Both the position numbers and the translations under genes were made by a program. Positions 15,908 through 49,208 of a stretch of DNA of 64,000 nt are shown here, in pieces; positions within the stretch are counted from its first letter, which is position 1, and every line of letters begins with the position of its first letter. Origin of the DNA: SAR324 cluster bacterium (GTDB lineage: Bacteria; SAR324; NAC60-12). The stretch covers positions 1 to 64,000 of the forward strand of contig JADFZZ010000007.1 in the NCBI GenBank assembly GCA_015232315.1, read 5' to 3'. Under the pieces are notes generated by a model, which was not told the DNA's origin, did not search any database, and worked only from the letters and a program-made list of their open reading frames with translations.

Positions 15908-17977
15908 ATGCACGGTATTACGTTTTTTCAGGATCTGGCAGTCATTATTATCACAGCCGGGGTGGTGAGTGTTTTATTTTATCGTTTTCGTCAACCCATC
16001 ATCCTGGGCTATCTGGTGGCCGGCATGGTGGTGGGACCCCATTTGCTAAGTTGGAATATGGTAAAGGATGAAGCGACTATCCGGAGCATCGGGGAACTGG
16101 GGGTAGTGTTTCTGATGTTTGCGCTGGGTCTCCATTTCAGCCTCCGGCAACTGTTTCGAGTTGGGATTTCCGCATTGATTGTCGCGTTGCTGGAAATTTC
16201 AATCATGATCTCCCTGGGATATGGAGCCGGGCGTACCTTTGGCGGCAGTCCGATTGACAATCTGTTTCTTGGTGCGATGCTTGCCATTTCATCCACCACC
16301 ATTGTTGTGAAAACCCTCCAGGAATATGGACTTCAGAAAGAAAACTTCACCAAACTGATTTTCGCGATTCTGATCATTGAAGATATTCTCGCCATCGTGT
16401 TGCTGGTTTTGTTATCCGGAATTGCCACCAGTGGCGCTTTCAGCATGTCAGCGTTTGGCTGGATGATCCTGAAACTCACCATGTTTTTAACCGGATTGGT
16501 GTTTATCGGTCTTCTGACCATTCCCCGCACACTCCGATATCTGGCAAAATTTCGCAATGATGAAATCCTGTTGATGGTATCGCTTGGACTTTGTCTGGGG
16601 GTGGCCCTCCTTGCTCAAAAACTGAATTACAGTGTGGCCCTCGGATCTTTCATTATTGGTGCTGTGATTGGCGAAACAAGGGAAGGTGGAAAGATTTCGA
16701 CATTGATCATGCCCTTACGGGATATGTTCAGTGCCATTTTTTTCGTTACAGTGGGAATGCTTATCGATTTCAGTGTGATTTGGGACAATCTCGCCTTCAT
16801 TGGGGTCCTGATCAGCATTGTGATTTTGGGGAAAACCACAGGCTGCACCCTTGGTTCCTTTTTGGTGGGTACCACTCCAAGAGATTCCTTGAAAATCGGT
16901 GTCAGCTTGTCCCAGATCGGGGAGTTTTCCTTTATCATCGCACAACTCGGACTCTCCCTTGGCGTCGTGAAACCAACACTGTATCCGGTCATCGTCGCGG
17001 TTTCTGTGGTGACCTCACTGACCTCGCCCTATCTGGTAAAAAACTCCCGGGGAATCGGTCTTGGCTTTGGAAAAATTATACCAAACGCCTTTCAGAATTC
17101 CCTGGTCCTGTATCATGAATGGATCACGGATATCTGGAAGAAAGACTTTTCCAAACAGAATTCCGCTGTTCAAAAAATCGTAAGGAGAAGCATACGTCTG
17201 ATTGCGATTGATCTCCTTCTCAGCACAACCATTATCATGAGTATTATTGCCGCGGGTCGGTATTTTCAACCTGGAATTCTCCAGATTCCTGAATACCTTG
17301 GTGGAATGAATTCCGTGTTATGGCTGATTTCCATGATGATGGTTCTGCCCTTACTGGTGCATACCTTTTTCAAATTGAGAGCACTGACCATGATCTTTGT
17401 GGAAATGGGCCTGAATGAACTGAAACAAAAAGCTGTTCCCGCGTTTGTTCATGGGACGTTGAACACTACCCTCATGATTGTTTTTTCAGCGGTGCTGATT
17501 TTTTGGCTCTCTCTGGTCAGTCTGGCCATCTTGCCGCCATGGCCGGTACTCCTTGTTTTGGTTGTTGTACTGTTCCTGACCGCAAGTCTGTTACTGAAGC
17601 ATTTTAACAAACTCTATACACGAACGGAACTCAGATTGTATGAAGTATTCGCGCACCATGTGGAAGTGGAAGCCGAATCAATTTCTGTTGCGGATCATCC
17701 ACTGAAACAGGCCAATCTGAAACTGGTGCATATTCCTGAACAAGCGTTTGTTCATGGACGTCTGATCCGTGAATTAGCCATTCGAACCCAGACAGGAGCC
17801 AGTCTGGTGGGCATCACCCGTGGAGAACTCAACCTGATCAACCCTGACCCTGACGAGGAAATACATTCAGGAGACGATGTGTTGATCCTGGGAACTACCC
17901 AGCAACTGGAAGCGTGCACAACCTTGCTGAACAGTAAGGGCTTGCCTCAAAAACAGGCAAAACAGTATCCTTTTTAG
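15908..17977 (+). CDS. CPA2-type cation:proton antiporter with RCK-C domain
   Basis: 689-residue inner membrane antiporter of the KefB/YbaL-like CPA2 family. The N-terminal two-thirds has about twelve hydrophobic segments starting VIIITAGVVSVLFYRFRQP, with the family motif GELGVVFLMFALGLHFS. After an extra hydrophobic pair (about 430-565) comes a soluble C-terminal RCK-C/TrkA-C domain (LVHIPEQAFVHGRLIRELAI...GDDVLILGTTQQL). No NAD-binding RCK-N domain is present. Likely exchanges K+ or Na+ for H+; ion choice cannot be read here. Lies 96 bases after the kinase gene and converges on the cyclase gene with only 17 bases between stops. Confidence 0.88.
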   Translation: MHGITFFQDLAVIIITAGVVSVLFYRFRQPIILGYLVAGMVVGPHLLSWNMVKDEATIRSIGELGVVFLMFALGLHFSLRQLFRVGISALIVALLEISIMISLGYGAGRTFGGSPIDNLFLGAMLAISSTTIVVKTLQEYGLQKENFTKLIFAILIIEDILAIVLLVLLSGIATSGAFSMSAFGWMILKLTMFLTGLVFIGLLTIPRTLRYLAKFRNDEILLMVSLGLCLGVALLAQKLNYSVALGSFIIGAVIGETREGGKISTLIMPLRDMFSAIFFVTVGMLIDFSVIWDNLAFIGVLISIVILGKTTGCTLGSFLVGTTPRDSLKIGVSLSQIGEFSFIIAQLGLSLGVVKPTLYPVIVAVSVVTSLTSPYLVKNSRGIGLGFGKIIPNAFQNSLVLYHEWITDIWKKDFSKQNSAVQKIVRRSIRLIAIDLLLSTTIIMSIIAAGRYFQPGILQIPEYLGGMNSVLWLISMMMVLPLLVHTFFKLRALTMIFVEMGLNELKQKAVPAFVHGTLNTTLMIVFSAVLIFWLSLVSLAILPPWPVLLVLVVVLFLTASLLLKHFNKLYTRTELRLYEVFAHHVEVEAESISVADHPLKQANLKLVHIPEQAFVHGRLIRELAIRTQTGASLVGITRGELNLINPDPDEEIHSGDDVLILGTTQQLEACTTLLNSKGLPQKQAKQYPF

Positions 17978-31173: not shown

Positions 31174-31424
31174 AACGTTCAAAAAATAACAGGGATAACG
31201 TGCCCCACGGGACGTACAAGGCTGTTAAGTTAAGAAATTACCTGTGAGTAAATCCCCCTTTTCAAAGGGGGCATGGGGGATTTAAAGCTCAGAATAACAT
31301 CCCCCTATCCCCCTTAAGCCAAGGGGGAATTGGTGCCAGTGCCTTCACAGGGCATAACTTAACCGACGTGCACGGGACGTAGGTCACGAGCAAACTTTTA
31401 CTACTTATTTTTTGCCATTCCTTA
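31174..31424 (-). repeat. A-family element A6, shortened, split by B1
   Basis: Reverse-oriented A element lacking the three central hairpins. Left part 31174-31216 and right part 31371-31424 join into CGTGCCCCACGGGACGTAG-type A sequence once B1 and one copy of CACGGGACGTA are removed. The 31141-31502 gap holds nothing else I can name. Confidence 0.75.
31217..31370. mobile_element. B-family MITE-like element, copy B1
   Basis: 154 bp with inverted ends CTGTTAAGTTAAG / CTTAAC-type and two internal G/C stems (CCCCCTTT-tc-AAAGGGGG and CCCCCTT...AAGGGGG). Flanked on both sides by the direct repeat CACGGGACGTA (31206-31216 and 31371-31381), i.e. an 11-bp target duplication within the A6 element. 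Confidence 0.85.
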
Positions 31425-31502: not shown

Positions 31503-34500
31503 TTAGACAAACTCCTTCAGAAAATCATCCAGGGCCTGCATGGTGTGGGTGTAGCATAATTCCATTTGTTGCCAAAGCTCAGGCAAGGGATCAGGAGTTA
31601 CAGAATCAGGCAGATGTTGGAGCTGGTTGAGCAAATCTGACAATTGTTTCGCGCCCAGACATAAAGCCGCACCTTTGATTTTGTGCGCAATCGTCCTGAG
31701 TTGGGAACGATCTTCACTCTTCAGAAACTCCGGGTAGGAGGCGATGACCTCTTCCATTTGCTGCCGCAACATCGTCTGCATGACCTGAAACCCTGACGCG
31801 TTTGTGGTAATCTTAAATTCCTCCAAGAGTTCTGAATCTAGCAACTCGAGCTCTTCAGGGGATGGTTCGACCGCCATGGATGAGGGCTTCGGCGTTTTCA
31901 TAGGGAGTCCCTCATAATTTACGATTTCAATATTTTTGTGGTGAGCGTAGTCCTTCAAAACATTCACCACCGTTTTAATCGTGATGGGTTTGCTGAGATA
32001 GGCATTCATTCCGGCCTCCAGGCATTTTTCCTTATCTCCGGGTAGGGCATTGGCTGTCATTGCAATGATCCGGGGCCTGGTTGCTGAGGGGAGCGTTTTG
32101 ACAAGTTGTCGTGTTGCTTCGAGTCCATCCATTTCAGGCATTTGCACATCCATGAAAATCAGATCATAGTTTTGCTGTTGTGTGACACTCAGCACTTCCA
32201 GTCCATTCGTGGCCAAATCCGCCTCATAGCCCAGTTTTTTCAAAATCATCAGTGTGAGTTTCTGGTTGATGGGGTTGTCTTCCGCCAGCAGGATTTTCAG
32301 GGGGAGTTTTTCCGCCATTTGAGAATCTGCCGTTTTTTCATCCGTTTTGGGGTGGGAAATGATGATCGGAGTTTCGTGAACTGCTGTCAGAAACACAGTG
32401 AACGTCACCACAGACCCCTGCCCCTGAACACTTTCCATGATGATGTTTCCGCCCATCATTTCCACCAGCCTTTTGGCGATCATGAGTCCAAGTCCTGTGC
32501 CGCCAAATTTACGGGTGGTTGACACATCCACCTGGGAAAATTGTTGAAACAGCAGGTTGATTTTATCAGGCGCAATCCCGATGCCGGTGTCTCTCACCCT
32601 GAACAGCAGTTCCACACGGGGTTCTTCTGACAACCTGAGACCCGTCAACTGTTTAAGTTCAACAGTAACCACAACCGCGCCGCTGCTTGTGAATTTCACA
32701 GCATTGCCCAGAAGATTGACCAGAATTTGCCGAAGGCGTGTCACATCTCCTGAAACGATGGCGGGAACCCCCGGTGAAATTTCAGCATGGAGATCAATGT
32801 GTTTATCCACAGCTTTGGCTTCAAGCAGCATCAAACTGCTGTCAAGCAGATCATGAATCAGAAACGGCGCATCCTCGAGGGTCATGTTGCCTGCATCAAT
32901 TTTTGAAAAATCGAGAATGTTATTGATCAGCGAAAGCAGATGCTCGCCGCTCAAATGGATCGTTCGGGCATATTCACGTTGTTCCAGGGTCAGTGGAGTT
33001 TCCATGAGCAGACTGGTCATGCCGATCACACCATTCATCGGGGTCCGGATTTCATGACTCATGCTGGCCAGAAATTCAGCTTTGGCCCGTGACGCCTGTT
33101 CTGCCGCATCCCGGGCCTGTTTCAGATCTTCCTGATAGCGGATATGCCCGGTGATGTCTTCCAACACCCAGATCACGCCCTGCTCCAGGTTGGCCGGATC
33201 AATCGCCTTGCCATTCATGCGCACCCAGATCAGCGTTCCATCACCCCGAAGCATCTGTTGCTCCGTATCAAAAACTTCCCCGCGTTCGAGCACCGGACGG
33301 GAATCGGAGTCAAATTGTTCAAACGCTGCCGACGAGGGATACATTTTTCGGGTGGAATGGTTTTCCATTTCTTCTCTGGGATACTGGAATATCTCCAGGC
33401 ATTTGGGGTTCACCCAGCGTATCACCCGATCAATGACGAGTGAAATCCCGACATTGGCCGTGTCCGCGACAAACCGGAACCGGGCCTCACTTTCCTTGAG
33501 TTGGAGTCCTTCTTCCTTCAGTTGTTCGGTCATGGCGTGGGCGATTTTCTGTGCCCGCCGGTTGATGAAATTCAGGGAGTAAATGACATAAAACAGCAAC
33601 AGGTCAATCAAACTGCCGGCCAGCGCCACAAACAGCGGTTGTCTGGTTTCGCCCTCACTGACAATCCCCGGATGCGAATTGAAATACAGTTTCCAGGTTC
33701 GTCCCTGAATGTTGAGGGTTATCAGTTTGCGCAAATAGGACGCCTTGTGCTGTTCCAGCGAATCCAACCGGGTATTGGTGTCAAACAAAAGTGTTTCGGG
33801 ATTCATGTCCTCCCCGTCAAAAATTTCAAAATCAATTTCAGTATCCCCCGTTCCTAAAATTCCATGCATGAGATCACCGGCCCTGAACGGCGAATACACC
33901 CACCCACTGAAGTGGGCTCGACGTGCTTCAAGGGTTGAGGGAACACTCCGGGTACGATAGGTCGGAATATACATCAGAAAACCTTTTTGAACGGCCTCAC
34001 TGGTTTCCTGGACCAGTGTGATGATCCCTGAGGTTGCCGCAACGCCTTCGTCCCGGGCACGGGACATCGCCCTTCTTCGTGTTTCATTGGACCACATGTC
34101 ATAGCCGAAGGCCCGTTGATTGCGCCAGTCGAAGGGTTCCAGATAGATGATCGCACTGTAGAAATCCCGGACTCCTTCAGGTTTGATGGTGTATTCGGGA
34201 AAGCCCTCCGCACGGATGGACGCTATGTGTTGTTCCCTGTCTTCGGGTCTGACTGGAATGCTGAAACCGATCCCCTGTATTCCCGGCCAATGCCGGTTGA
34301 TGTTTAAGATTTTCACATATTCCGCCCATTCTTTGCGGGAGACGTGCTCTGAAGACGCGAACAAACCGGCGCCTCCCCACAGAACCTGTTCATAAATTTC
34401 CAGGCGATCCTCAATGGCAGTGGCAATCTCATGGGAGCGTAGATTGAACCGTTCAGCAATCCGCTGTTGGACCGAGGTGGAGGTGAAATAATAAGCCCAG

Positions 34501-34625
34501 ATTGTGGCGAGGATGGAGGAACCCAGAATGAGCCAGGCCAACAGTGGATTATGCAGGATGTTCAATAGCCGCTGTTTTTTATTGACCAGCAATTCATCGG
34601 TTTGATTCACGGGTATGGTGTCCAT
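31503..34625 (-). CDS. CHASE-PAS hybrid histidine kinase with receiver and HPt
   Basis: 1040-residue inner-membrane sensor kinase. Membrane helix about 30-50, periplasmic CHASE domain (about 70-310, with WPGIQGIGFSIPV, PEGVRDFYSAIIYLEPFDWRNQRAFGYD), second membrane helix about 335-355, PAS (about 380-495), HisKA with His524 ([11 protein letters not shown]), HATPase (to about 750, GGTGLGLMIAKRL), receiver with Asp826 ([13 protein letters not shown]) and HPt with His981 (IAHKIKGAA). The full His-Asp-His relay ends in the HPt, so a separate receiver must take the phosphate; receiver proteins at 40092 and 58447 are candidates. CHASE domains bind small ligands such as cytokinin-like adenines. Paralogous to the next kinase from HisKA to HPt. 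Confidence 0.93.
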   Translation of the reverse strand: MDTIPVNQTDELLVNKKQRLLNILHNPLLAWLILGSSILATIWAYYFTSTSVQQRIAERFNLRSHEIATAIEDRLEIYEQVLWGGAGLFASSEHVSRKEWAEYVKILNINRHWPGIQGIGFSIPVRPEDREQHIASIRAEGFPEYTIKPEGVRDFYSAIIYLEPFDWRNQRAFGYDMWSNETRRRAMSRARDEGVAATSGIITLVQETSEAVQKGFLMYIPTYRTRSVPSTLEARRAHFSGWVYSPFRAGDLMHGILGTGDTEIDFEIFDGEDMNPETLLFDTNTRLDSLEQHKASYLRKLITLNIQGRTWKLYFNSHPGIVSEGETRQPLFVALAGSLIDLLLFYVIYSLNFINRRAQKIAHAMTEQLKEEGLQLKESEARFRFVADTANVGISLVIDRVIRWVNPKCLEIFQYPREEMENHSTRKMYPSSAAFEQFDSDSRPVLERGEVFDTEQQMLRGDGTLIWVRMNGKAIDPANLEQGVIWVLEDITGHIRYQEDLKQARDAAEQASRAKAEFLASMSHEIRTPMNGVIGMTSLLMETPLTLEQREYARTIHLSGEHLLSLINNILDFSKIDAGNMTLEDAPFLIHDLLDSSLMLLEAKAVDKHIDLHAEISPGVPAIVSGDVTRLRQILVNLLGNAVKFTSSGAVVVTVELKQLTGLRLSEEPRVELLFRVRDTGIGIAPDKINLLFQQFSQVDVSTTRKFGGTGLGLMIAKRLVEMMGGNIIMESVQGQGSVVTFTVFLTAVHETPIIISHPKTDEKTADSQMAEKLPLKILLAEDNPINQKLTLMILKKLGYEADLATNGLEVLSVTQQQNYDLIFMDVQMPEMDGLEATRQLVKTLPSATRPRIIAMTANALPGDKEKCLEAGMNAYLSKPITIKTVVNVLKDYAHHKNIEIVNYEGLPMKTPKPSSMAVEPSPEELELLDSELLEEFKITTNASGFQVMQTMLRQQMEEVIASYPEFLKSEDRSQLRTIAHKIKGAALCLGAKQLSDLLNQLQHLPDSVTPDPLPELWQQMELCYTHTMQALDDFLKEFV

Positions 34626-34689: not shown

Positions 34690-34915
34690 TTTAACTATTT
34701 TTTCTGGTTCCCTACCTCTGGTGCACGTCTGTTAAGTTAAGAAATTACCTGCGAGAAAATCCCCCTTTTCAAAGGGGGCATGGGGGATTTAACGCTCAGA
34801 ATAACATCCCCCTAACCCCCTTAAACCAAGGGGGAATTGGTGCCAGTGCCTTCACAGGACTTAACTTAACAGACGTGTACCTCTGGCGAGGAACCTTCCT
34901 CTTATTCTTTTGCCA
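34690..34915. repeat. F-type element split by B2
   Basis: CTGGTTCCCTACCTCTGG on the left and CTCTGGCGAGGAACCTTCC... TTATTCTTTTGCCATTC on the right rejoin to an F-type unit when B2 is removed. The right end carries the same GGCAAAAGAATAAG head as A elements (reverse strand) and stops on the stop codon of the next gene. Confidence 0.6.
34722..34877. mobile_element. B-family MITE-like element, copy B2
   Basis: 156 bp. Terminal inverted repeats CACGTCTGTTAAGTTAAG and CTTAACTTAACAGACGTG are perfect over 18 bp. Direct repeats TACCTCTGG flank it (34713-34721 and 34878-34886), a 9-bp target duplication. Confidence 0.9.
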
Positions 34916-34919
34916 TTCG

Positions 34920-37604
34920 TTAATTCAATTCAATCTGCAATTTTTTTAATTCAGACAGCGTTTCAGTGTAGCACTGTTCCAACGCTGTCAGAAGTTCGGG
35001 CAGGGGATCAGGAATCACTCCTGATGGCATATTTTGCAATTGTTGAAATAACTCTGTCAAACGGATGGCACCCAGGCTTGAAACTGTGCCTTTGAGCTTA
35101 TGGGCGATACGTTTAATGGGGGTCCGATCAGTCTTCTGGATGAAATCCTGAAAATCCTTGATGGCTCCGGTGACCTGCTGTTCAAAGATTTTGAGCATCT
35201 CCTGAAATAATTCACGATCCATTTCTAAGAGAAGTTCCTTGATGTAGACCGGATCCAGCAAACCCATGGATGGGGTTCCGGAAAGAGTTGGTTGTTCTGG
35301 CAAAGCAGAAACACTGTTGTTCAGGGTGGAAACACCGGAAATATCACCTGATACCACGTCGAAATGTGTTTCACCTTCCTGATTTTTCATGAAATGCAGA
35401 TGGAGCATCCTGGCCAGATCACGCAGTCGTATGGGTTTACTCAGGTAGTCATTCATCCCGGCCTGCAAACAAATTTCCCTGTCTCCCGGCAGAGCATTGG
35501 CTGTCATCGCGATGATCCATGGACGCTCTGCGCTGGATGTTTGGGCCACAATCTGTCGAGTGGCTTCCAGACCATCCATTTCAGGCATCTGGACATCCAT
35601 GAAGATCACTTCATAGTGCTGTTGACTGACACACTTCAACACCTCCGGTCCCGTGGTGGCAATGTCCGCGGAATAGCCGAATTTTCCAAGCATGCGCAGG
35701 AACAATGTTCTGTTGATCGGATTGTCTTCAGCCACCAGAATCCTGATTGGCATTTTTTCCGCCAATTGGGGATCTACAGTTTTTTGTTCCATATGCCTGG
35801 AATAATAGTCCCTTGTCAGCGGCAATGATCCTGAAGGCAAGGCACGCAAAGGCACCATGAAAGAAAAGATGGAACCTTTTCCGGGAGTACTCTCCACCCG
35901 CATTTTACCCTTCATCAATTCTACCAGTCCTTTGCAAATGGTCAGCCCCAGGCCGGTGCCGCCATATTTGCGGGTTGTCGAAAAATCTTCCTGGGTGAAC
36001 GCCTGGAAAATATGCTCAATTTTTTCAGGCGCAATACCAATTCCGGTATCCTGAACACTGAACAGTAGTTCCGCACGGGACCCCTCACCCCCTCCCTGAG
36101 AGGAAAGCTGTTCTAATTCCACAGAAACCACCACCACCCCTTTCTCGGTGAATTTCAGGGCATTGTCGATGAGATTGAGCAGGATCTGTCGCAGACGTGT
36201 GACATCGCCTGTCAGGAACCGCGGAACCATTGGTGAAATATTTAACCGCAAATCAATTTGTTTGGTCTCCGCTTTGGAAATCAGTAATTCCAGTGTATTT
36301 TCCAGCAGTTCATTGACCTGGAAGGGAATTTTCTCCAAGGTGATGTTGCCGGAATCAATTTTTGAAAAATCCAGAATATTGTTGATCAGGGTCAGCAGGT
36401 GCTCTCCGCTCAAATGAATGGTCTGGGCGAATTCCTGTTGTTCACTGGTCAATTCTGTTTCCATCAGCAGGCTGATCATCCCGATAACCCCGTTCATCGG
36501 TGTGCGGATCTCATGGCTCATGTTGGCCAGAAATTCTGATTTTGCGAGGTTGGCGCGTTCCGCGAGTTCTTTGGCCGTCTGCAATTCTTCAGTCCTTGAG
36601 GCGACCAGTGCTTCCAGATGATGCTGATGTTCTTGAATTTCCAGTTCCCGCTGATCCATCGCTTTTGCCAGATCTTCCAGTTCATCGCCGGTGCCTACAG
36701 GCGCAAAATGCGAGAGTTCATCCTTGTTGGCCAGCCTTGTTTTAGTCCAGAGTCGCAGAATGGGTTGGGCGAGGCTCTGTCCGAGATAGCGAGACAGGCC
36801 AACAGCAAACAGCACCAGCACCACACTCGCCAGCAGCAACACTGAAAGCAATTTCCAGAGGATGCGCAGGTATTCTTTTTTCAAGGCACCCATTTCAAAC
36901 CGGATGTTCAATTGATGCAGGTTGGGCATCGTTTCATCTGCGCTCATTATCAGGGTTTTATAAGCGATTTCAGGATTGTACTGATAGGTATAAATCGTTT
37001 GCAGGGGAGTCAATACACGATAAAAACCTGTGGTCGTCGTTGGCACACTCCTGCTGATCAGATCATCCATATGAAATTCGGCAATCAGCGCGCCGATGGG
37101 CGTGTGATAATAATCAATGGATTTCACCATAATCAACCGTTGTGAATCCTGAGAAAGTCTGGTGAGTGTCTGGCCTGTCTGTAGCGTTGGACGAAGGTAG
37201 AGTTCTGTTTTGTAATCGGGTGGTTGACTGAGACTGCTTGCAAACAGATTGCCTTCAAAATCCACAAGTGTGACTGAATCCACCCCCTGGGCCTTGTTGA
37301 AATTCTGAATGAGTTTGGCCAGATATTCGCTGTTGTTGTCAGAAACCGCCAAACTGTTGACGATAAAGTGGTTTTCACTGAAGTTACCGAGATTTTCCTG
37401 GAGATAAACCAGTCTCTGCTCCATGGAAATCAGGGAATGCCGGGAACGTGATTCCAGCAGATGTTGCAATTCCTGCTGGATCGAAAGAAAGGCGATAATC
37501 GCCACAATCAGGATGAGGGAACTCATCATGCCCGTCACGGTCAAGGTAAAGGTCCGGGTGATGCGTTGTCTGATGCTGGTAGTCTGAAAATAGCTGAAGG
37601 ACAT
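34920..37604 (-). CDS. membrane hybrid histidine kinase with HAMP, receiver and HPt
   Basis: 894 residues from the ATG at 37604 ([15 protein letters not shown]); a TTG four codons earlier is less likely. Membrane helices about 25-48 and 250-275 enclose a Cache-like periplasmic sensor ([26 protein letters not shown]). Then HAMP (about 275-335), a short coiled coil, HisKA with His364, HATPase ([16 protein letters not shown]), receiver with Asp670 ([13 protein letters not shown]) and C-terminal HPt with His835 (IAHKLKGTV). From HisKA to HPt it is close to the CHASE kinase encoded next, so the pair arose by duplication with exchange of the input domain. Confidence 0.92.
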
Positions 37605-37700
37605 GTTGTTTCTCAATGGTTCAGAATCGTGTAAAAAATACCCTGTAAAATTTCAAAAAATATCTTCTGCCTGAAACCCGTCTCTACCATCTGTAAACCC

Positions 37701-37855
37701 AATGTCGTCAACTTAAGGCGTTCTTCGCCGGGGAATCCCCCTTTTCAAAGGGGGCATGGGGGATTTAACGCTCAGAATTACATCCCCCTAACCCCCTTGA
37801 ACCAAGGGGGAATTGAAACACAGCACCGTTCAGAATGCTTAAGTTGATGACATTG
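37701..37855. mobile_element. B-family MITE-like element, copy B3
   Basis: 155 bp with ends AATGTCGTCAACTTAAG and CTTAAGTTGATGACATT (16 of 17 pairs). The direct repeat TCTGTAAACCC lies at 37690-37700 and 37856-37866, an 11-bp target duplication. Removing element and one repeat restores a plausible uninterrupted CCCGTCTCTACCA-type intergenic sequence. Confidence 0.9.
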
Positions 37856-37883: not shown

Positions 37884-40031
37884 TTATCTATGGCCAACGG
37901 GAACAATCGCTCCCGATTTATCAAACTCTGCCAGAAAATAATGTTCAGGATTCAATCCGTCATGCTGCGTGGCAGTGAAGGCCGGTGCATAGCGTTGAAC
38001 GACGCCATCATACGGAGGCAGGTTTTCCAGCGCATCCCTTATTTTGGAACGTTCGAGTGTACCGGCCTGCTTGATCGCCAGGGCCAGCAAATGAATCAGA
38101 TCCCAGGCATGAGCGATGCCGACAGGTGCCTCGATTTTTTCAGCGTCAGCAATTTCATATTTTTTCAGATATCGGGTTTTGAGGTCCTCAGCCCGTGGGT
38201 TGAGGTGTGTCAGAAAGGAAAAGGTCTGAATAAACTGGAAGGGCACTTTCTCAAGATCCTGATGGGCTTCTTCCCAAAAATTTCCTCCGGTAATTCCCCA
38301 ATGAGAAATGATTGGCAGAATGTTTTTTTGACGGGCCATGTTGTGCACAATGGTCACGCCTTCAGGCGCGTTGGCAATCAGCAGAATCACATCGGCCTGA
38401 GCCGCTTCGATGCGTTTGAGTTGAATGGACATGTCAGGTTCTCCATTGTTGAACCACTCAATCGCTGCCGGTTCGATCTGTCTTGCGTTCAAGGCCTCCT
38501 GAAGGGCCTTTTGATTGCTCCGGCCCCAGAGATTGTTGTTCAGCAGCAACGCCGGGCGTTTATAATTTTTTAAGGCTTCCGCGACAAGAAAAGGCCCCAC
38601 GTATTTGTCATTGGCGGAAACACGAAACACATAGCCCGGAGAATCCTTTTGTTCCGTCAAGCCGGTTGCGGCGCCCCACGGGCCCAGATAAATCAGTTGG
38701 TTCTGATGAATGGTTTCCATTCCCAAAAGTACGATTTGACTGTGCAATCCACCCAAGACCGCAACCAGGTTGGGCAAAGTCGCAAAATATCTGATATTTT
38801 CCAAACCAATCGCGGCCACACCCGAATTGTTCCGCACAACCAGTTTCAGCCGTTTACCCAGAACACCTCCGTGATGGTTGATGTCCTCAATCGCCAGTTC
38901 CGCGCCTCGCTGGATCGCGATGCCGGATTGTGCGGAACCCGCAATCATGTCGGCATCCAGGCCAATGAGAATTTCATTGTTGAGCAGACGTTCTTTCTTT
39001 TCCACCAGCAGTCTGGTCAGTTCCAGAAATTCGCCGCCGACTTTACGATACGAATCAATCACCGGCATCAGGGCCTGCTGAAAACGGGCTTTTTCCTCTG
39101 TGGTGAGTTCATAAACCTGTGTGCCATGAGCCCGTATCGTTTTAAGCTGTTCTGTTTCCCTCTTTAAAATTTCCTGCCGTTGAAAGCCGGTCAGTTCCAC
39201 GGCTGTTTCCACAAGGATCTTCTGCAAATCCCCGGGCAGGGTGGTCAATATTTTATTGCTGAAACACAGGGCCTGCGCCAAATAGGCATGATTGCTCAAA
39301 ATGAGATATTTCTGGATTTCATAAAATTTCATTCCGGCGATGGAGCCAATTGGATTTTCCTGTCCGGAAACATTGCCATCACTCAAGGCACTGTAGGTTT
39401 GACTGAAGTCAATCGGGATTGGAACCGCACCCAACAGCCTGTATTGCTCCATGAGCAACGGGCTTTTCATGACGCGGAAATTCAGTCCCCTGAAATCTTC
39501 CGGACGATGAATCTCCTTATTGGCTGTGAATTGCTTGAAACCGCTTTCCCAGAAAGTGGGACAGGTCAAACCATGAGCATTCAACAGCTTTGATAACAAC
39601 TGCCCCGGTTCACCATCCAGCATTTCATAAAGCTGTTCCCGATTTTTGAAAAAAAAGGGCAAATCGGGGTATTGCACGGCAGGTTCCAGGAAGCTCATCT
39701 TGGCCGTAGGAGGCAGAGAAATCGCCAGAGTTCCAGCCAGCAAACGCTCTATCATCTGTTCATCAGTCCCCAGAGACTGATTGGGGAAAACCTCAACGAC
39801 TATGTTCCCCCGGCTTTTATAATTCACAATATCCGCAAACCGCAGGGCGGCAATATGCTGGGCACTGTCTGGAGCCATATCATGCCCGAACTGAAGGTGA
39901 AATGGCTCCGGTGTTCCAGTAAGTTTCTTTTCTTTCAGGTCTGTACTGCCGGTTATCCAATTCAGTTCCAGAACGAGCAGAAACAACACAAATATCGCGG
40001 TAATTCCCGACAGGAGGTGCTTTTTATTCAT
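37884..40031 (-). CDS. fused DctP-type and LivJ-type periplasmic binding protein
   Basis: 715 residues from the ATG at 40031 (MNKKHLLSG). An N-terminal hydrophobic segment (about 5-25) serves as signal or anchor. Residues about 40-350 form a TRAP DctP-like binding domain: FHLQFGHDMAPDSAQH, IVVEVFPNQSLGTDEQMIERL, PEDFRGLNFRVMKSPLL with the ligand Arg, GQENPIGSI. Residues about 355-715 form a type I periplasmic binding domain (Peripla_BP_6): NEILIGLDADMIAGSAQSG, GAELAIEDINHHGGVLGKRLKLVV, VLGGLHSQIVL, LLNNNLWGRS. Neither TRAP nor ABC membrane genes are adjacent; the neighbours are a receiver-phosphatase gene (60 bases upstream) and kinases. I infer a dual-ligand extracytoplasmic sensor rather than a transport component. 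Confidence 0.88.
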   Translation of the reverse strand: MNKKHLLSGITAIFVLFLLVLELNWITGSTDLKEKKLTGTPEPFHLQFGHDMAPDSAQHIAALRFADIVNYKSRGNIVVEVFPNQSLGTDEQMIERLLAGTLAISLPPTAKMSFLEPAVQYPDLPFFFKNREQLYEMLDGEPGQLLSKLLNAHGLTCPTFWESGFKQFTANKEIHRPEDFRGLNFRVMKSPLLMEQYRLLGAVPIPIDFSQTYSALSDGNVSGQENPIGSIAGMKFYEIQKYLILSNHAYLAQALCFSNKILTTLPGDLQKILVETAVELTGFQRQEILKRETEQLKTIRAHGTQVYELTTEEKARFQQALMPVIDSYRKVGGEFLELTRLLVEKKERLLNNEILIGLDADMIAGSAQSGIAIQRGAELAIEDINHHGGVLGKRLKLVVRNNSGVAAIGLENIRYFATLPNLVAVLGGLHSQIVLLGMETIHQNQLIYLGPWGAATGLTEQKDSPGYVFRVSANDKYVGPFLVAEALKNYKRPALLLNNNLWGRSNQKALQEALNARQIEPAAIEWFNNGEPDMSIQLKRIEAAQADVILLIANAPEGVTIVHNMARQKNILPIISHWGITGGNFWEEAHQDLEKVPFQFIQTFSFLTHLNPRAEDLKTRYLKKYEIADAEKIEAPVGIAHAWDLIHLLALAIKQAGTLERSKIRDALENLPPYDGVVQRYAPAFTATQHDGLNPEHYFLAEFDKSGAIVPVGHR

Positions 40032-40091: not shown

Positions 40092-41225
40092 TCACACTAC
40101 TTCGAGACCAACCAGGGTTACATCATCTTCAAAGGTGTCTTTTCCCGAAAAATCCCGCAAATGGTTGACCAGTTGATCCAGCAGGATCTCCATTCGCTGA
40201 TCGGCATGACGCAATAAAAAATGTTTCAGATTGAGCACACCGAACATTTGCTCTTTTTCATTGAAAACTTCAGTGATTCCATCGGTATACAGCAAAATTT
40301 TATCTTTAGGCCGCAAGTCGATTTTACATTCTTCATAATGAGCGATTTCATGCGAAAACAGGCCAATCCCCAAACCTCTGGTTTTGAGGTGTAAAATTTC
40401 GTTGGTTGAGGGGCGGATCAACAAGGCCGCGGGGTGTGCCGCTGACGTGTAGGTGAAACTTTGAGTGTCAGGATCATAAATCCCATAAAACATGCTGGCA
40501 AAGGAACCCTCTGGCAATTTATTGAAAATGACGCCATTCACCCAGTCCAGAGCCATTTTCGGTGAACGCAAGCCCGGCGAGAAATATTTGAAAATGCCCG
40601 ACACCATAAAGGAAATCAAGGCCGCGGAAATGCCATGGCCGCTGACATCCGCAATCAGGAAACCGAAGTGTGTTTCATCCACTTCAAACACATCATAAAA
40701 ATCACCACCGATCCGGGACATGGTCAGGTAGCGGACGGTCACGTTCATTCCAGGCACTTCGGGCAGTTCTTTTTGTAAAAGAGCGTGTTGCATTTCTCTG
40801 GCTTGTTCCAGCTCCTGTTGCAGGAGCCGCTGTTGCTGGAACCGTTGTAAATTGCCCAGCACTCTGGCACGGAATTCCTGAAGGATGAACGGTTTGACGA
40901 TATAATCCGTTGCCCCCAGTTCGAAAGCCCTGATTTTTTGTACAGGCTCCTGATGCGCCGTCAGAAACAAAATGGGTATCTCTTTATACTGTTTTATTTT
41001 CCGGATCTGTTCAATCAGTTCAAAGCCATCCATTTCAGGCATTTCCAGATCCGTCACAAGCAAGGACACATTTTGTGCTTCAAGCACCTTCAACGCTTCA
41101 ACTCCGTTGCTGGCATTGAGAAGCTCCACCGTGCAATCGGCCTCAACTTTCATGGCGGAACGAATCCTCAAATGTATCATGGGATCATCGTCAACCACCA
41201 GGATCTGGCATGGATCTTTTCGCAT
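40092..41225 (-). CDS. response regulator with SpoIIE phosphatase output
   Basis: 377 residues. Receiver (about 5-130) with Asp14/Asp13 acid pair and phospho-acceptor Asp59 (LLVTDLEMPEMDG), a coiled-coil linker (RFQQQRLLQQELEQAREMQHALLQKELPE), then a PP2C/SpoIIE phosphatase (about 160-377) with metal aspartates in IGGDFYDVF, IADVSGHGIS, LYTDGITEVF and FEDDVTLVG. Phosphorylation of Asp59 would switch the phosphatase, as in RsbU/HsbR-type partner-switch control. It probably shares a transcript with the downstream DctP/LivJ fusion. Its receiver is strikingly like that of the protein at 58447-59826. Confidence 0.93.
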   Translation of the reverse strand: MRKDPCQILVVDDDPMIHLRIRSAMKVEADCTVELLNASNGVEALKVLEAQNVSLLVTDLEMPEMDGFELIEQIRKIKQYKEIPILFLTAHQEPVQKIRAFELGATDYIVKPFILQEFRARVLGNLQRFQQQRLLQQELEQAREMQHALLQKELPEVPGMNVTVRYLTMSRIGGDFYDVFEVDETHFGFLIADVSGHGISAALISFMVSGIFKYFSPGLRSPKMALDWVNGVIFNKLPEGSFASMFYGIYDPDTQSFTYTSAAHPAALLIRPSTNEILHLKTRGLGIGLFSHEIAHYEECKIDLRPKDKILLYTDGITEVFNEKEQMFGVLNLKHFLLRHADQRMEILLDQLVNHLRDFSGKDTFEDDVTLVGLEVV

Positions 41226-41247: not shown

Positions 41248-41399
41248 AAAAATTCGTAAGCGTTCAGCTTACTGTGAAAATCCCCCTTTTCAAAGGGGGT
41301 TGGGGGATTTAACCCTCAGAATTACATCCCCCTAACCCCCTTAAACCAAGGGGGAATTGGTTCACAGTACCATTCTGGATGCTTAAGTTGATGACATTG
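41248..41399. mobile_element. B-family element, copy B4, left end altered
   Basis: Carries both internal G/C stems and the intact right end GCTTAAGTTGATGACATTG. The left end is replaced by GTAAGCGTTCAGCTTAC, which matches the end of the G element at 11398. No target duplication is seen. It directly abuts the C3 remnant. Confidence 0.7.
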
Positions 41400-41493: not shown

Positions 41494-44400
41494 TTATCCG
41501 CCCATGAGCGCACTGAACACCTGTAATTGCGCGTTGAACTTTCCTGTATCTCCTGTCCGGGACGCGGTTGAAAGTTGTTCAGCGTATTTGCGCAATAGTT
41601 CTGACTGATGGCTGTCTGCTATTATTTGCAGAATCTGGACAAACGACTCAAGATCCTCCCGTTGCGGATGGTTTACCAGGGAAGGCCAGACGGCCTGAAA
41701 TTCTTCCCGGATCTCCTGTTGCAAGACCTTGGGAAGTCGGGTGAGATCTAGGGTGTTGGCATCATCAGCACTGTTGCCGGTATGGGTAAGAATGGTGTGG
41801 ATCGTTTTGATCAGTAATTTGGGTGAGATGGGCTTGAACAGATAATCCGCGCACCATTGTTTCAATTGTTCCGATTCTTCCTTCAGAGCGGAGGCGGTCA
41901 GAATGACAATCGGGATATGGGAAGTCTTTGGATTTTCCTTGATCAAACGGGTCGCCTCAATGCCATCCATGCCGGGCATGTGAACATCCATGAGAATCAG
42001 ATCCGGCAATTCCGCTGTTGCCTGATTCACCCCTTCGTAGCCATCCACGGCCTCCAGACAGGTGATGGGATATTTATGCAGAAATCCGCGGATCACCATT
42101 CGATTGGGTTTATTGTCATCGACAATCAAAACCGTGGCCTTCGGCAAATCCATGTCCCTGGCTGGTTGCGTTTCTGTGGGAGTCTCCAACTTGGCAAGTT
42201 CAAGTCCATAGAGATTGATTCTGAACAGGGATCCCTGTCCCGGGACACTGCGGAGGTGAATTTTGCCACCCATCATGGTCACCAGTTGTCGAGTGATGCT
42301 CAAGCCGAGTCCGGTTCCGCCATAACGACGGGTGCTTTGACCTTCGACCTGGGTGAACACGTCAAAAATCAATTGCTGTTGATCTTCGGCGATACCGATG
42401 CCTGTGTCTTCGACTTCCACTACGAGATTGATCCGGGTGGGATCGTGGCTATGGGCGGTTTCAACGATTGAAAACTTCACCTGTCCCTGTGAGGTGAACT
42501 TGAACGCGTTGCTCAATAAATTGATCAGAATCTGCCGGAAACGCACTTCATCCAGCATGATTCCAGTCGGGAGTGTGGGCGACACATTGATTTCAAATTG
42601 CACGCCACTTTCCTGGACTCGCGGCAGAAACATCGTCCGCATTTCCTGTGCCATGGTGAGGAGGTTGACCGGTTCCAGTCGCAGTTCCAGTCGCCCGGCC
42701 TCAATTTTTGACAGATCCAGCACATCATTGATGAGCAACAACAGGTTTTGTCCGCCAATATGAATGCCCTTGAGATATTCCTGTTCCTCAGGCTTCAGAT
42801 TGATATTCGATAACAGCGATGCGAAGCCCAGAATGGCGTTGAGCGGAGTACGGATTTCATGACTGATATTGGCCAGAAAACGACTTTTTGCCAAATTGGC
42901 CTGTTCCGCCCGTTTCTGGGCCTGTACCAGTTTTTCTTCCAGGATCTTCCGTTCAGTGATGTCGGTGTGAGAACCGGACACCCGAACCGGTTTGCCGTCG
43001 CTGTCTTTGAACAACTCTCCGCGACCTGAGATCCAGACATAAGAACCATTCTTGTGACGCATGCGGAATTCAGAGTCAAAACGCCCGACACCATATTTCA
43101 GATAATGCTGTATTTTTTCAGACATCATCGGTTGATCTTCCGGATGCAGCAGATTGATGAAGGTCTCTGGAACATTGGCCAGTTCGTCATCGTCATAACC
43201 GAGGATCTGTTTCCATTGCGGAGAAAAATACATTTCATTGGTCAACAGATCCCAGTCCCAGATGCCATGTTGTGCCCCCCGGACAGCCAGTTCAAACTGA
43301 TCCCGGTTTTTTGCCAGAGCGTCCTCTGCCAGTTTGAGTTCAGTGATGTCGGTGAACGATGTCACCACGCCATCAGGACTTTGAGTGGATTCCAGGAATA
43401 TGGGTGAAGAATTGACAGATAACCAGATCATGGAACCCTGCTCATGCTGAACACCAGTGATGACTCGTTTTTGTGATACTCCTGTACGCAAGGTCATCCT
43501 TACCGGATACTCCTCATCCGTAAATTCTCGTCCATCCGGATGAATGACTTTCCATTGAGGTGAGGATGTTGATCGACCGATGACCTGGTTTCGTGACACA
43601 CCCAGAATCTGTTCCGCGGAGGGATTGATCTCAAGGATCTGCCCGTTCCTGCCATACAGGACAACGCCTTCGGCAAGGGTGTTGACCAGCGAACGATAGC
43701 GCAGTTCCGCTTTGCTCAGTTCTTCACGGCTTTTTCTCAATTTCTGTTCTTCCCGGTTGCGTATCCGTGTTTGATACCAGAGGGCCGAGATCATTATCCA
43801 AAGGACGCACCACAGCACAAGGCCCCTGAGCAGGGTCGGTATTAAATGTGCGCTACGCCATTGCTGTTCAAATTCCAGGCGGTTTAAGGCCAGAACGGTT
43901 CTGAAAGGAAAATTTTTCAGTTGATACACCGCATAATCCCAGTCGGTCGCTTCCAGCATTCCGGTGCTCGAAACGAGGGCCTCTGTCAGAACAAGTCTGG
44001 AAAAGGCCTCAACCTCTGAAATGGAGTTTCCGAATTTTTCCTGACTTTTGTAACTGTCGTTGATCCAGAGAGAGTGCAGGATCCCCTCAGAATCCATCAG
44101 ACCTGCCGCATGCATGAACAGGACGGATGTTCGTGACATCTGTTCAAAGTATGAAGAAGGATCAAGCAACAGCAACAGCACACCCAGCGGGTGAGTGCCC
44201 TCCTCGTTATACAGAAGCATACTCAGGTGAGTGACCGGGTGATTGTCGTGAGGAGGAAGAATCATCATTTTCTGAGTGTCATGCTGATGCCGTGACAGGA
44301 GCGTCTGAAAATCAAGCGGTATGTTCATTTTCATGCCGGGGTACAACCAGATTTCCGCCAGAAGATTACCGTTCATATCAAGCACGGCACTACCGGCAAT

Positions 44401-44727
44401 TTGTGGCACATGAATCATGTGCTGTTGCATGATCCTTTGAAAATCTTCCCGGATGTCCTGCTGAGCGCTCAGAAGCGAGGATATCCGGGAACCGGTTTCC
44501 AGCAGGATAAACCGCGAAAGCAGGAGGATTGTATTGATCGAATTTCCCACAATCTGGGCCTGGGAGATGGCTACAGTATGGGTTTGTTCAAGGATGACTT
44601 CCCGTTCTTTGAGGACAGATTGTAGCAAATACCACAACGACAACACCATCAAGGCCACCACCATGAGCGCAATAATCGCGGTCAGACGGGTGAGGCTTTG
44701 CGGATATTTTGAAGGAACGGTTTTCAT
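41494..44727 (-). CDS. membrane hybrid histidine kinase with tandem PAS and receiver
   Basis: 1077 residues. Two membrane helices (about 15-37 and 290-312) flank a periplasmic Cache-like sensor (about 40-285). Then PAS (about 345-455), PAS_3-type domain (about 470-590, QHGIWDWDLLTNEMYFSPQWKQILGY split over the fold core), HisKA with His623 (NISHEIRTPLNAI), HATPase ([16 protein letters not shown]), receiver with Asp914 (LILMDVHMPGMDG), and a helical C-terminus of about 100 residues without a clear HPt histidine. The start ATG overlaps the stop of a short upstream frame (ATGA), so it may be translationally coupled to the small genes before it. Confidence 0.92.
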   Translation of the reverse strand: MKTVPSKYPQSLTRLTAIIALMVVALMVLSLWYLLQSVLKEREVILEQTHTVAISQAQIVGNSINTILLLSRFILLETGSRISSLLSAQQDIREDFQRIMQQHMIHVPQIAGSAVLDMNGNLLAEIWLYPGMKMNIPLDFQTLLSRHQHDTQKMMILPPHDNHPVTHLSMLLYNEEGTHPLGVLLLLLDPSSYFEQMSRTSVLFMHAAGLMDSEGILHSLWINDSYKSQEKFGNSISEVEAFSRLVLTEALVSSTGMLEATDWDYAVYQLKNFPFRTVLALNRLEFEQQWRSAHLIPTLLRGLVLWCVLWIMISALWYQTRIRNREEQKLRKSREELSKAELRYRSLVNTLAEGVVLYGRNGQILEINPSAEQILGVSRNQVIGRSTSSPQWKVIHPDGREFTDEEYPVRMTLRTGVSQKRVITGVQHEQGSMIWLSVNSSPIFLESTQSPDGVVTSFTDITELKLAEDALAKNRDQFELAVRGAQHGIWDWDLLTNEMYFSPQWKQILGYDDDELANVPETFINLLHPEDQPMMSEKIQHYLKYGVGRFDSEFRMRHKNGSYVWISGRGELFKDSDGKPVRVSGSHTDITERKILEEKLVQAQKRAEQANLAKSRFLANISHEIRTPLNAILGFASLLSNINLKPEEQEYLKGIHIGGQNLLLLINDVLDLSKIEAGRLELRLEPVNLLTMAQEMRTMFLPRVQESGVQFEINVSPTLPTGIMLDEVRFRQILINLLSNAFKFTSQGQVKFSIVETAHSHDPTRINLVVEVEDTGIGIAEDQQQLIFDVFTQVEGQSTRRYGGTGLGLSITRQLVTMMGGKIHLRSVPGQGSLFRINLYGLELAKLETPTETQPARDMDLPKATVLIVDDNKPNRMVIRGFLHKYPITCLEAVDGYEGVNQATAELPDLILMDVHMPGMDGIEATRLIKENPKTSHIPIVILTASALKEESEQLKQWCADYLFKPISPKLLIKTIHTILTHTGNSADDANTLDLTRLPKVLQQEIREEFQAVWPSLVNHPQREDLESFVQILQIIADSHQSELLRKYAEQLSTASRTGDTGKFNAQLQVFSALMGG

Positions 44728-45405: not shown

Positions 45406-46290
45406 TCAACTCCTGTTGGTGAAATCAGAAATTTGCACACCGGGATCAAAGTGTTCAGACTCTTCCTGGTTTACCAGTTTATAAAAATCACATTGTTCAC
45501 AACCATTTTCATGTTTAGCGTGACCGTGGTTTTTCTTGCCACAGAAGGTTCCATTGATGGCCCAACAGACTCGGCCGCCATTGGTTCCATGATTGCAACC
45601 ATCCGCGTGATACAGCGCGGAAGCCGGGCATTCCCCATGGTGGACCCTGTAGCCATCCAGTTCCCGTCCGCATTTAAAAAATTCCCAGCAATTCTGTTTT
45701 TGGTTTTTACAGGATTCCTTCTGACTCCGGAAAATGATGGTGATTCTGTTTCCTGTTTTATTCCAGAACGCCCCGCTTGATAACTTGCGAATGATCAGAA
45801 GTCCTCTGCCGACAGTTGAGCCATTAAAATCAAGCTGTTCGAGTTGCTGAAGTATTTTGAAATCGAAACCATTGCCTTCATCTTCAATGTCAAAACGCAG
45901 TTGATCGTCTGTCATTAAATATAAAATATGAACTTTTTTTCGTGAATAAATCGGGTCGTTTTCACAGGACCTTAGTTTTGAATAAAACACACTCCAGTCA
46001 GTCTCTTTCAAGGCTGAAGCAATTTCAAAATTTCCGTGAACAACAGCATTTGTAAGTGCTTCATTGAGGCAAAGGTGCACCTTGTCCGGATCAATCCCAT
46101 GTTTCAGACAATATTCACCACAATGCTGGTCCAGATGTTCCAGTATCTTACTAATATTCTGCAACTGACTTGATATGATAAGCAGTTGAGACTGGTTTAC
46201 AGGCTGAAACTTGATTCCCCTAAGATCCACATAATCATTCAGGGATGATTCCTCATTGATTCTTTGCTGGAAGTCGTTGGTTTTATTCAT
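45406..46290 (-). CDS. RsbW-like ATPase fused to a CW domain, copy 1
   Basis: 294 residues. After a 40-residue lead comes a GHKL ATPase of the anti-sigma kinase type (HATPase_c_2, about 45-190): LNEALTNAVVHGN (N box), FDIEDEGNGFD (G1) and GRGLLIIRKLS (G2). The C-terminal 90 residues are the CW domain: NCWEFFKCGREL, GECPAS, GRVCWAINGTFC, GCEQCDFYK. RsbW-like kinases phosphorylate STAS proteins or hold sigma factors; neither partner is visible. The CW domain may add redox or metal control. First gene of an operon that runs through 45095 and 44875 to the kinase at 41494, with the 36-bp repeat motif 78 bases upstream. Confidence 0.88.
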   Translation of the reverse strand: MNKTNDFQQRINEESSLNDYVDLRGIKFQPVNQSQLLIISSQLQNISKILEHLDQHCGEYCLKHGIDPDKVHLCLNEALTNAVVHGNFEIASALKETDWSVFYSKLRSCENDPIYSRKKVHILYLMTDDQLRFDIEDEGNGFDFKILQQLEQLDFNGSTVGRGLLIIRKLSSGAFWNKTGNRITIIFRSQKESCKNQKQNCWEFFKCGRELDGYRVHHGECPASALYHADGCNHGTNGGRVCWAINGTFCGKKNHGHAKHENGCEQCDFYKLVNQEESEHFDPGVQISDFTNRS

Positions 46291-46727: not shown

Positions 46728-49172
46728 TCAAAGACCGGAATCTTTCCAGAATTTGAGATAATGGCCGATGATAAAAAGTTCAGTCCTGTTCAACAGATAT
46801 TGTTGGACGTGTTGTGACACATAGGTGGGATTCTGTAAGGACTGAACCGTATTGAACTGCTTTATCAATTGCTGTTGCGTCTGTTCCAGAATCAGCAGAC
46901 GTCGGGTCAGATGCAGGTGCTGAAAAATCATGTTTCTGAGCAGTTCCAGGGATTGCTCAGAGTAGTTTATGTTCTGACTGACTTTGGAAATTTCTTTCCT
47001 ACGCTGGAGGAACCGTTTGAGCAACTGCGTTTTATCCTCAAAAATACTGAAGAGATTGAGGCGATAAACCCTGACGAAGTTAGAGGACTTGTCCTGGAAT
47101 TGACGAAGCCGGAGATAGACGGGCAGACATTGTGATGAACTGTTCAACCAGTCGGTGAACACCACCAGATCATACTTGTCCAACCGGGAATTTTTCAGAA
47201 ACGCTTCGATACTGTCTGATGAGGAGGGATCATGGTCAGCGGCTTTCATCTGTTTTTCAAGCTTGTTCAGCGTCCAGAGGGCCAGCAAGCCGGCATCAAA
47301 CCCCTCAGCTATCAAATGTTCACAAATTGGCTCGCCCCTGTCATCAATGATAAGACAGCGGCTGACCCGAACCAGCGCAAGCACCAGTTTTTCCAGATGT
47401 CCCCCTTCTTCAATGGCTTCCAACAACAACCAGTGTAACAGCGTCAGGTATTGCGGAAACAATTCCTGAATCGAAGCTTCATTTTGTTGTAGCCGGGTCC
47501 GGACTTTATGAACACTCTGCTGTATTTTCCAGAGTTGCTGGTGTTCATTGTATTTTGCGACCAATAACTTATTTTGTTCACTCCGGGTGATGTTTTCTGC
47601 CAGTTGTACGAAGCGTTGTGACCATTGATCCACTTTGAAAAAATCAGTGCTGTCCGGATAGGTGTATTCCGACAGGGGTAATTCAGCATCAACAATTTCT
47701 GATGACCATTGTTCGGGAAGGGTTGAAATTTCTGAACCGGTGGACCATGACTCCCGGCCTCTCAGCGACAGGATAAGGCTGGCCTGTTCCAGTTCCTGCA
47801 TGTTTGTTTTTCCCGGTGTTGAGATTATGGCAGAAAGGCCGGTTGCGTCCAGACGCTGGCGTAAATTTTGTTCAAATTCCCCATTCCACAACTTCGGCAA
47901 CAATAAAACCGGGCGCACCTGCTTTATTTTTTCCTGATCTCCCGGCCGATACACTCTGGTTTGCGGCAGGAATTCGTTCACGTCCAGTGAAGTGAACACC
48001 GTTGGGGCCACAGTGTTCCTGTCCAGTGTCGCGGCCGAAATCGTTGCCAGCGTGGATAATACCTGTTTGACGGCAGTGACGTCTGTTTGAAACAGACGCG
48101 GTTTGAGATTGTTCAGGAAGTTCTGAAAATTATTATTGAGTTCCTTGAACACACTGGATTTTTCACTGAGACTTTCCACCGGAGATCGTTTTTCCGGTTC
48201 CACCTTCTGCTGAAGCTGAGCCACGGTATCATTGAACGTTTCCAGGGGCAGTTGATTCAGTAGTTGATCTTCTTTTTCGGGATCTTCAAGCACCCATTCG
48301 GAAAAGGTTTTTCCCTGAAAATACAGATTCTGATAAATTTTCTGCTTCTCAGGATGCCTGTCCAGACGTTTCACCCAGTGATGCAGATATTCCTGTTTGA
48401 GTTGTTCAAAGTGAACCAGGCTGTAGTGAATGTTCAAATTGCGGTTGCGCACCCGGGTACGGATTTGCTGACGGAACATCAAATTCAGGAATATGCTACG
48501 GTAAGGGTTGACATCCACAGTTTCAGGACGCGCGTATACCAACTTCAGTTGACGGCGATGCTCCAGTTGCTCTGATTTCAGATAATCAGGACTGATATTT
48601 TTATAAATCAAATTGTGATATTCCGGTTTGATGGATTGCCGGATCGCCATCATCAAGGCCCCGCGAAAGCCCTTCAAAATGCTGATCTGCCGCTCTTTCT
48701 GAAATTCTGAGGGAAAACTGACGCCTGACTCGATTTCAGTCTGGAGAGCGTCCACTGACTCGATTGTCTTTTTGACTTTGTAGAGATCATACAGAACATA
48801 AATATCCTGTTCATACGGGTCACGGTTGATAAAAAACCAGTCTCCCTCTCTGTCGCATTCAACCGCATACAGATGACGCATGAACTGATGAAAACTTTTT
48901 TCAGAGACAAAAGCCCCATGATATCTGAAAAATTTCTGTTGTGAGACTTCAGACGTTTTTTTCAACTGTTCCAGAAGCGGCAGAATATAAAACCGAAACG
49001 CGTGCCGCAAATGGTTGATGCGAACCAGCATGTGATCGGTGAGCTGAAGCTTCTGCTCATAAATTCGATCAGATTTTTCTTTCCAGAACCGGTCGATATT
49101 CCTGATTTCTCTGATCCAGAAATTACTTCTGTTGTTGACTGGTATCTCTGGTGATGTGTTTTCAGGCGACAT
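46728..49172 (-). CDS. large cytoplasmic protein of unknown function
   Basis: 814 residues from the ATG at 49172, which has AAAGGAGG seven bases upstream; the upstream extension starts only at TTG. No membrane segment. The N-terminal half is basic and helical (NIDRFWKEKSDRIYEQKLQL, YEQDIYVLYDLYKVKKTIES). Two stretches look like degenerate receiver folds: about 425-480 (RPVLLLPKLW..., SAIISTP, SLILSLRG) and about 605-700 (SRCLIIDDRGEPICEHLIAE, YDLVVFTDWLN, NFVRVYRL). The second keeps an Asp pair but no standard phosphorylation site. The C-terminus is coiled-coil. Surrounded by signalling genes, it may be a scaffold or pseudo-receiver; that is inference. Confidence 0.75.
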   Translation of the reverse strand: MSPENTSPEIPVNNRSNFWIREIRNIDRFWKEKSDRIYEQKLQLTDHMLVRINHLRHAFRFYILPLLEQLKKTSEVSQQKFFRYHGAFVSEKSFHQFMRHLYAVECDREGDWFFINRDPYEQDIYVLYDLYKVKKTIESVDALQTEIESGVSFPSEFQKERQISILKGFRGALMMAIRQSIKPEYHNLIYKNISPDYLKSEQLEHRRQLKLVYARPETVDVNPYRSIFLNLMFRQQIRTRVRNRNLNIHYSLVHFEQLKQEYLHHWVKRLDRHPEKQKIYQNLYFQGKTFSEWVLEDPEKEDQLLNQLPLETFNDTVAQLQQKVEPEKRSPVESLSEKSSVFKELNNNFQNFLNNLKPRLFQTDVTAVKQVLSTLATISAATLDRNTVAPTVFTSLDVNEFLPQTRVYRPGDQEKIKQVRPVLLLPKLWNGEFEQNLRQRLDATGLSAIISTPGKTNMQELEQASLILSLRGRESWSTGSEISTLPEQWSSEIVDAELPLSEYTYPDSTDFFKVDQWSQRFVQLAENITRSEQNKLLVAKYNEHQQLWKIQQSVHKVRTRLQQNEASIQELFPQYLTLLHWLLLEAIEEGGHLEKLVLALVRVSRCLIIDDRGEPICEHLIAEGFDAGLLALWTLNKLEKQMKAADHDPSSSDSIEAFLKNSRLDKYDLVVFTDWLNSSSQCLPVYLRLRQFQDKSSNFVRVYRLNLFSIFEDKTQLLKRFLQRRKEISKVSQNINYSEQSLELLRNMIFQHLHLTRRLLILEQTQQQLIKQFNTVQSLQNPTYVSQHVQQYLLNRTELFIIGHYLKFWKDSGL

Positions 49173-49208
49173 GACGCCTCCTTTCCGGCTATGGCTATTC
49201 AATATATA

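Follow-up and report, generated by a model that had tools for sequence, protein, structure and literature searches.

In the LuxP-LuxQ and TorT-TorS systems, a solute-binding protein (SBP) is encoded together with a hybrid kinase and contacts the periplasmic domain of that kinase, and the examples of binding-protein signalling known to us involve one binding domain each. In Vibrio cholerae, the PotD-like SBP NspS works on a membrane GGDEF-EAL receptor, MbaA, via its periplasmic domain. Control of sensor kinases and GGDEF-EAL proteins by SBPs is an established mechanism, and about ten SBP-signalling sensor kinases have been characterised (PMC9602780); both SBP-driven kinases and SBP-driven c-di-GMP enzymes are known (PMC9602780, PMC11113362). 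Likewise, BctC of Bordetella, a TctC-type binding protein of a secondary transporter, signals to the sensor kinase BctE (PMC5812351). The locus described here shares features with each of these systems and differs from each. Its SBP is encoded with a hybrid kinase, as LuxP and TorT are, but the SBP families and the sensor domains differ; the partners gave no match to a LuxQ or TorS sensor domain (Pfam, 48 partners; Foldseek) and are dCache-like instead, so that the system, lacking a LuxQ-type periplasmic domain, is not LuxPQ proper. NspS-MbaA is comparable to the 22 cases described below in which the partner is a GGDEF-EAL protein, but NspS is a single SBP domain of another family, whereas the present protein joins two SBP domains from two transporter classes and is mostly paired with kinases. 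BctC, which also serves a transporter, is a single-domain protein of the TTT class, in contrast to a two-domain protein with a TRAP-type head.

The fusion gene occupies positions 37884..40031 on the minus strand of the window (the whole stretch of DNA that was analysed, 64,000 nucleotides), running from an ATG at 40031 to a stop at 37884 and encoding 715 amino acids with no in-frame stop. Pfam placed a DctP domain at residues 48-329 (PF03480, E 4e-83, 279 bits, profile positions 1-284 of 286) and a Peripla_BP_6/LivJ-type domain at residues 354-707 (PF13458, E 1.5e-32, 114 bits, profile positions 2-342 of 343), behind a single hydrophobic membrane segment at residues 5-23; the coordinates, the frame and both domains are thus as the earlier note had read them. 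Structure prediction likewise found each half complete: the AlphaFold2 model, run with 66 fusion sequences, has a mean pLDDT of 92.9 and contains two complete, confident domains, with a helix at residues 322-346 leading into the second. The first half is a member of PF03480 by its full-length profile, its pocket arginine, its QENP motif and its alignment with solved DctP proteins, and in Foldseek it resembles TRAP receptors for C4-dicarboxylates and sugar acids (TMt 0.88-0.92). PA5167 DctP (TMt 0.92), DctPAm and SiaP share this fold and the motifs of the pocket (FR..., GQENP), but they are stand-alone proteins bound to DctQM, whereas the DctP of the present protein is fused and without DctQM. 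The second half belongs to PF13458 by its full-length profile, and a sequence search matched it to solved branched-chain amino-acid (LIV) binding proteins. One hydrophobic segment was found in 72 of 76 fusions and a lipobox-like motif in only two, which makes the fusion either a signal-anchor or a signal-peptide protein and, as a rule, no lipoprotein.

The fusion is not confined to this locus. The source genome (5.25 Mb) carries a second one of 713 amino acids on contig C35, which is 42% identical, and a related SAR324 genome carries a third (47% identical). An alignment-based scan of GTDB r220, seeded with two peptides of the DctP half, detected 167 relatives; it returned 80 loci, 72 of which contain a complete fusion ORF of 614-828 amino acids (median 722); the shortest of these, at L135, seems to be frame-broken inside the LivJ half. 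The hosts include Nitrospirota, Magnetococcales, Campylobacterota (Sulfurimonas, Sulfuricurvum) and SAR324, in addition to Gammaproteobacteria (Amphritea, Thiomicrorhabdus, Hydrogenovibrio, Methylomonas) and Betaproteobacteria (Dechloromonas, Azoarcus, Zoogloea, Rhodoferax), and they include the cultured species Amphritea atlantica, Dechloromonas denitrificans and Oceanospirillum beijerinckii.

A large gene on the same strand lies next to the fusion in all 73 readable pairs, its start falling between -88 and +109 bp from the fusion stop. The two genes overlap in 48 of these pairs, by exactly 4 bp in 35, and a 4-bp overlap is a mark of translational coupling. Among the complete fusion ORFs, only the frame-broken one at L135 lacks a large partner. 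With this sole exception, the downstream gene at every readable locus encodes a membrane receptor with the same dCache-type periplasmic domain of 330 amino acids, and the architecture of an SBP gene followed by a receptor whose periplasmic domain lies between two transmembrane segments is present in 73/73 readable pairs. In the window, this partner is a hybrid kinase of 898 amino acids (34920..37616, minus strand; Pfam, sensor homology, AlphaFold2 and Foldseek), in which transmembrane segments at residues 28-46 and 256-274 enclose the dCache-type domain and are followed by HisKA, HATPase, receiver and Hpt domains. A Pfam scan of 48 partners identified HisKA and HATPase in 30, GGDEF and EAL in 17, and dCache_1 in 31 at E<=0.001, although dCache_1 falls below the Pfam gathering score in members read singly. 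The assignment to the dCache sensors rests on profile and fold together, since the AlphaFold model of the sensor (pLDDT 90) has a dCache-type fold like those of DctB, KinD and PctA (Foldseek).

A sensor HMM built from the first 335 amino acids of the kinase partners only was matched by all 26 partners first classed as non-kinases, over the whole 330 amino acids (E 1e-89 to 1e-109). Three of the loci first classed in this way by motif (L100, L111 and L117) proved to be kinases by Pfam. After checking, the 76 pairs comprise 53 kinases, 22 GGDEF-EAL proteins and one truncated partner (L072), and the output of the partner has switched twice on the sensor tree. Across 383 genomes, the sensor profile gave only three strong matches, all beside fusions: the source genome has exactly two, beside its two fusions, and the third lies beside the fusion of genome G004. 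Kinases beside LivJ-only binding proteins in related genomes matched the HMM more weakly (E 1e-18 to 1e-27), and the other kinases in the window did not match it. The periplasmic domain is therefore the only constant part of the partner, and the outputs are exchangeable; this constant domain is also what a periplasmic binding protein could touch. The earlier suggestion was that the protein perhaps touches the Cache or CHASE domains of neighbouring kinases; of these, the Cache-type kinase is identified as the partner, and the CHASE kinase, which has no homology to the sensor, is not. Variations on this arrangement were also seen. In one Hydrogenovibrio (L124, 10038-12315), the sensor and the GGDEF-EAL part of the partner occupy two separate but overlapping ORFs, probably owing to a frameshift. 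At L153 (133-3984 and 4027-5778), the place of the binding protein is taken by a chemoreceptor (MCP) gene, which precedes a kinase whose sensor is a distant version of the one described here. At three further loci of the source genome (L156 on C36, L157 on C18 and L158 on C23), a single-headed LivJ-type binding protein is encoded directly before a membrane receptor gene, two of the receptors having kinase motifs and one no recognised kinase motif, which indicates that pairing of SBPs with receptors is common in the source organism.

The sensory role that had been proposed for the protein is strongly supported by its constant pairing with one kind of receptor gene, by a sensor domain that does not change and by the lack of permeases; the correlated distances of DctP half and sensor (r 0.87), which shared descent would also produce, count in its favour as well. 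The protein is very probably a membrane-tethered or periplasmic two-headed co-receptor for a dCache receptor, of the LuxP-LuxQ or NspS-MbaA kind, and not part of a transporter. In the favoured model, ligand closes one or both of the Venus-flytrap heads, the ligand of the DctP head probably being a small carboxylate such as a C4-dicarboxylate and that of the LivJ head probably varying between species. The fusion would then pass its ligand state, presumably by physical contact, to the dCache domain of the adjacent receptor and across the membrane. In the source genome, the signal may run from the hybrid kinase at 34920-37616 through its own receiver and Hpt domains to the adjacent receiver-SpoIIE (RR-SpoIIE) phosphatase as the putative target of the phosphorelay, and a related RR-SpoIIE (30% identical) that follows the kinase at the paralogous locus on C35 supports this output. 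In other bacteria, the same periplasmic pair would drive a GGDEF-EAL (c-di-GMP) output.

Whether both heads sense is a separate question, on which the residues of the two clefts bear. In the DctP half, R186, K166, E225, N226 and H248 are invariant in 76/76 fusions; R186 is part of the FR motif and E225-N226 belong to QENP, and both motifs align with solved DctP proteins, and the equivalent arginine binds the ligand carboxylate in SiaP-type receptors. Sensing of two ligands is plausible because this pocket is fully kept. The LivJ half is more variable and its pocket is only partly conserved, for which reason it could serve as a scaffold. It is accordingly possible, if somewhat unlikely, that only the DctP head senses while the LivJ-type half is an adaptor docking on the dCache domain (or the reverse), in which case there would be one ligand and no integration. 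Such an arrangement would fit the invariant DctP pocket and the higher mean pairwise identity of this half (0.55, against 0.38 for the LivJ half and 0.33 for the sensor), but the loci were retrieved with DctP seeds, which to some degree overstates how conserved this half is, and this bias favours DctP in the comparison. It would also fit the distance correlations, which are highest for DctP-sensor (r 0.87), lower for LivJ-sensor (0.73) and lowest for DctP-LivJ (0.68), values that partly reflect shared descent, and the LivJ-only proteins at L039-L041, which show such a sensor paired with a LivJ half on its own. On the other hand, those LivJ-only relatives beside kinases must bind something themselves, and many residues of the LivJ cleft region are kept in the fusions (W452 in 74/76, D475 in 72/76, W502 in 72/76 and G503 in 76/76).

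The co-receptor reading also has to be weighed against the possibility, which we regard as very improbable, that the fusion is a transporter binding protein serving distant TRAP or Liv permeases and that its place beside kinases is incidental. The source genome does contain two TRAP systems and at least two Liv systems elsewhere. However, its clear TRAP permeases are confined to C23 and C14, where each is accompanied by an adjacent stand-alone DctP of its own; BPD_transp_2 (Liv-type permease) occurs only on C14, C18 and C6. The earlier observation that no TRAP or ABC membrane gene is adjacent was borne out in the window, and tabulation of the neighbours showed that the homologues do not sit beside such permeases. 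No TRAP permease (DctQM) adjoins the fusion in the window, on C35 or at the 80 loci, where a weak DctM match (92 amino acids, E 5e-6) lies about 5 kb upstream of the fusion in two Marinobacterium loci, whereas TRAP permeases were found at 18 of 23 stand-alone DctP loci used as a control, most of which are shorter than 4 kb. Three LivH/LivM permease queries similarly found none in the 80 loci. With no permeases encoded alongside it, the fusion is a member of neither the TRAP transporters nor the HAAT/Liv ABC transporters. Among 50 carrier genomes, DctM is missing from 13 (including Methylomonas methanica R-45363 and Candidatus Magnetobacterium casense), LivH/M from 14 and both from three; most of these genomes are MAGs, which makes single absences of a permease weak evidence. 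The universal pairing with one sensor domain, and the specificity of a P subunit for its own QM partner (PMC5812351), further argue against service to distant permeases. That the fusion is an assembly or frameshift artefact joining two genes can be dismissed, since no support for it was found and the open frame, the paralogue in the same genome and the complete ORFs elsewhere show that the two-domain fusion is real and not an assembly join.

The fusion and its partner kinase lie within a cluster of signalling genes on the minus strand. The receiver-SpoIIE phosphatase (40092..41225; Pfam) ends 60 bp upstream of the fusion, and hybrid kinases flank the fusion on both sides, as previously stated: beyond the partner lies a CHASE-PAS hybrid kinase (31503..34625), and on the other side a membrane PAS hybrid kinase (41494..44727). 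Both were assigned by Pfam, lack sensor homology and are neighbours rather than partners. Between the fusion and its kinase lies a dispersed repeat of 156 bp with 18-bp terminal inverted repeats (37700..37855), which explains the unusual gap between these genes in the window; it is also present in the fusion-kinase gap of the paralogous locus on C35. Further copies are found in the window at 41279-41399, 34758-34839 and 31251-31332, and at L005 at 12313-12468 and 16443-16596. This MITE- or REP-like element sits in four intergenic gaps of the signalling cluster and is otherwise rare in the approximately 0.97 Mb sampled. The repeat could affect the relative expression of fusion and kinase, and because it separates them, their co-transcription in the source genome is only putative. 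Two other genes of the region were recorded. An 824-amino-acid protein encoded upstream, near the cluster (46728-49202), has no Pfam match, and a comparison showed that its gene and the one preceding the C35 copy are unrelated. The gene at 45406-46290 encodes an RsbW-like HATPase_c_2 protein, extended at its C-terminus by a cysteine-rich stretch, which may act downstream of the SpoIIE phosphatases.

The DctP halves all fall into one clade (support 1.0), which also takes in the truncated homologue L042, and the sensors of the fusion partners likewise all make up a single clade (support 0.99); this suggests a single origin of the cassette. In relatives of the same phylum, the genes of the LivJ-only proteins L039, L040 and L041 immediately precede genes for kinases whose sensor is distantly related, and a history in which a LivJ-kinase pair gained a DctP head is therefore reasonable. 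On the LivJ tree these three proteins nest inside the LivJ halves of the fusions (support 0.9), whereas the fusion partners stay together on the sensor tree; the nesting may reflect an exchange of LivJ halves or weak resolution.

The source genome contains nine magnetochrome (PF18509) matches, at C3:177634-184201 and C17:39599-39802, whereas none was found in 14 control genomes, which makes a magnetotactic SAR324 bacterium the probable host. Among the 50 carrier genomes, which were chosen with a lean towards likely magnetotactic ones, 20 pass the PF18509 family cut-off, that is, at least 20 of about 79 carriers. In a sample of 383 genomes of relatives, four pass this cut-off, three of them in the family of the source genome, and the positive members of that family include both genomes with a complete fusion. 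Magnetotactic bacteria are thus strongly enriched among the carriers, by counts uncorrected for descent or shared habitat.

The literature searched, from which subscription papers were mostly absent, yielded no description of the fusion, nor any account of a receptor served by a binding protein whose two SBP domains come from different transporter classes. We give an about even chance to the broader proposition that TRAP-type and ABC-type heads form an undescribed cross-phylum sensory cassette, a two-input detector for one dCache receptor that is preferred by redox-gradient and above all by magnetotactic bacteria. If this is true, one chain that joins the receptors of two transporter classes and serves a single sensor, whose outputs are exchangeable, would make a natural two-input device. 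For magnetotactic and sulfur-oxidising bacteria, about whose nutrient signals little is known, the fusion also provides a sensory link that can be tested.
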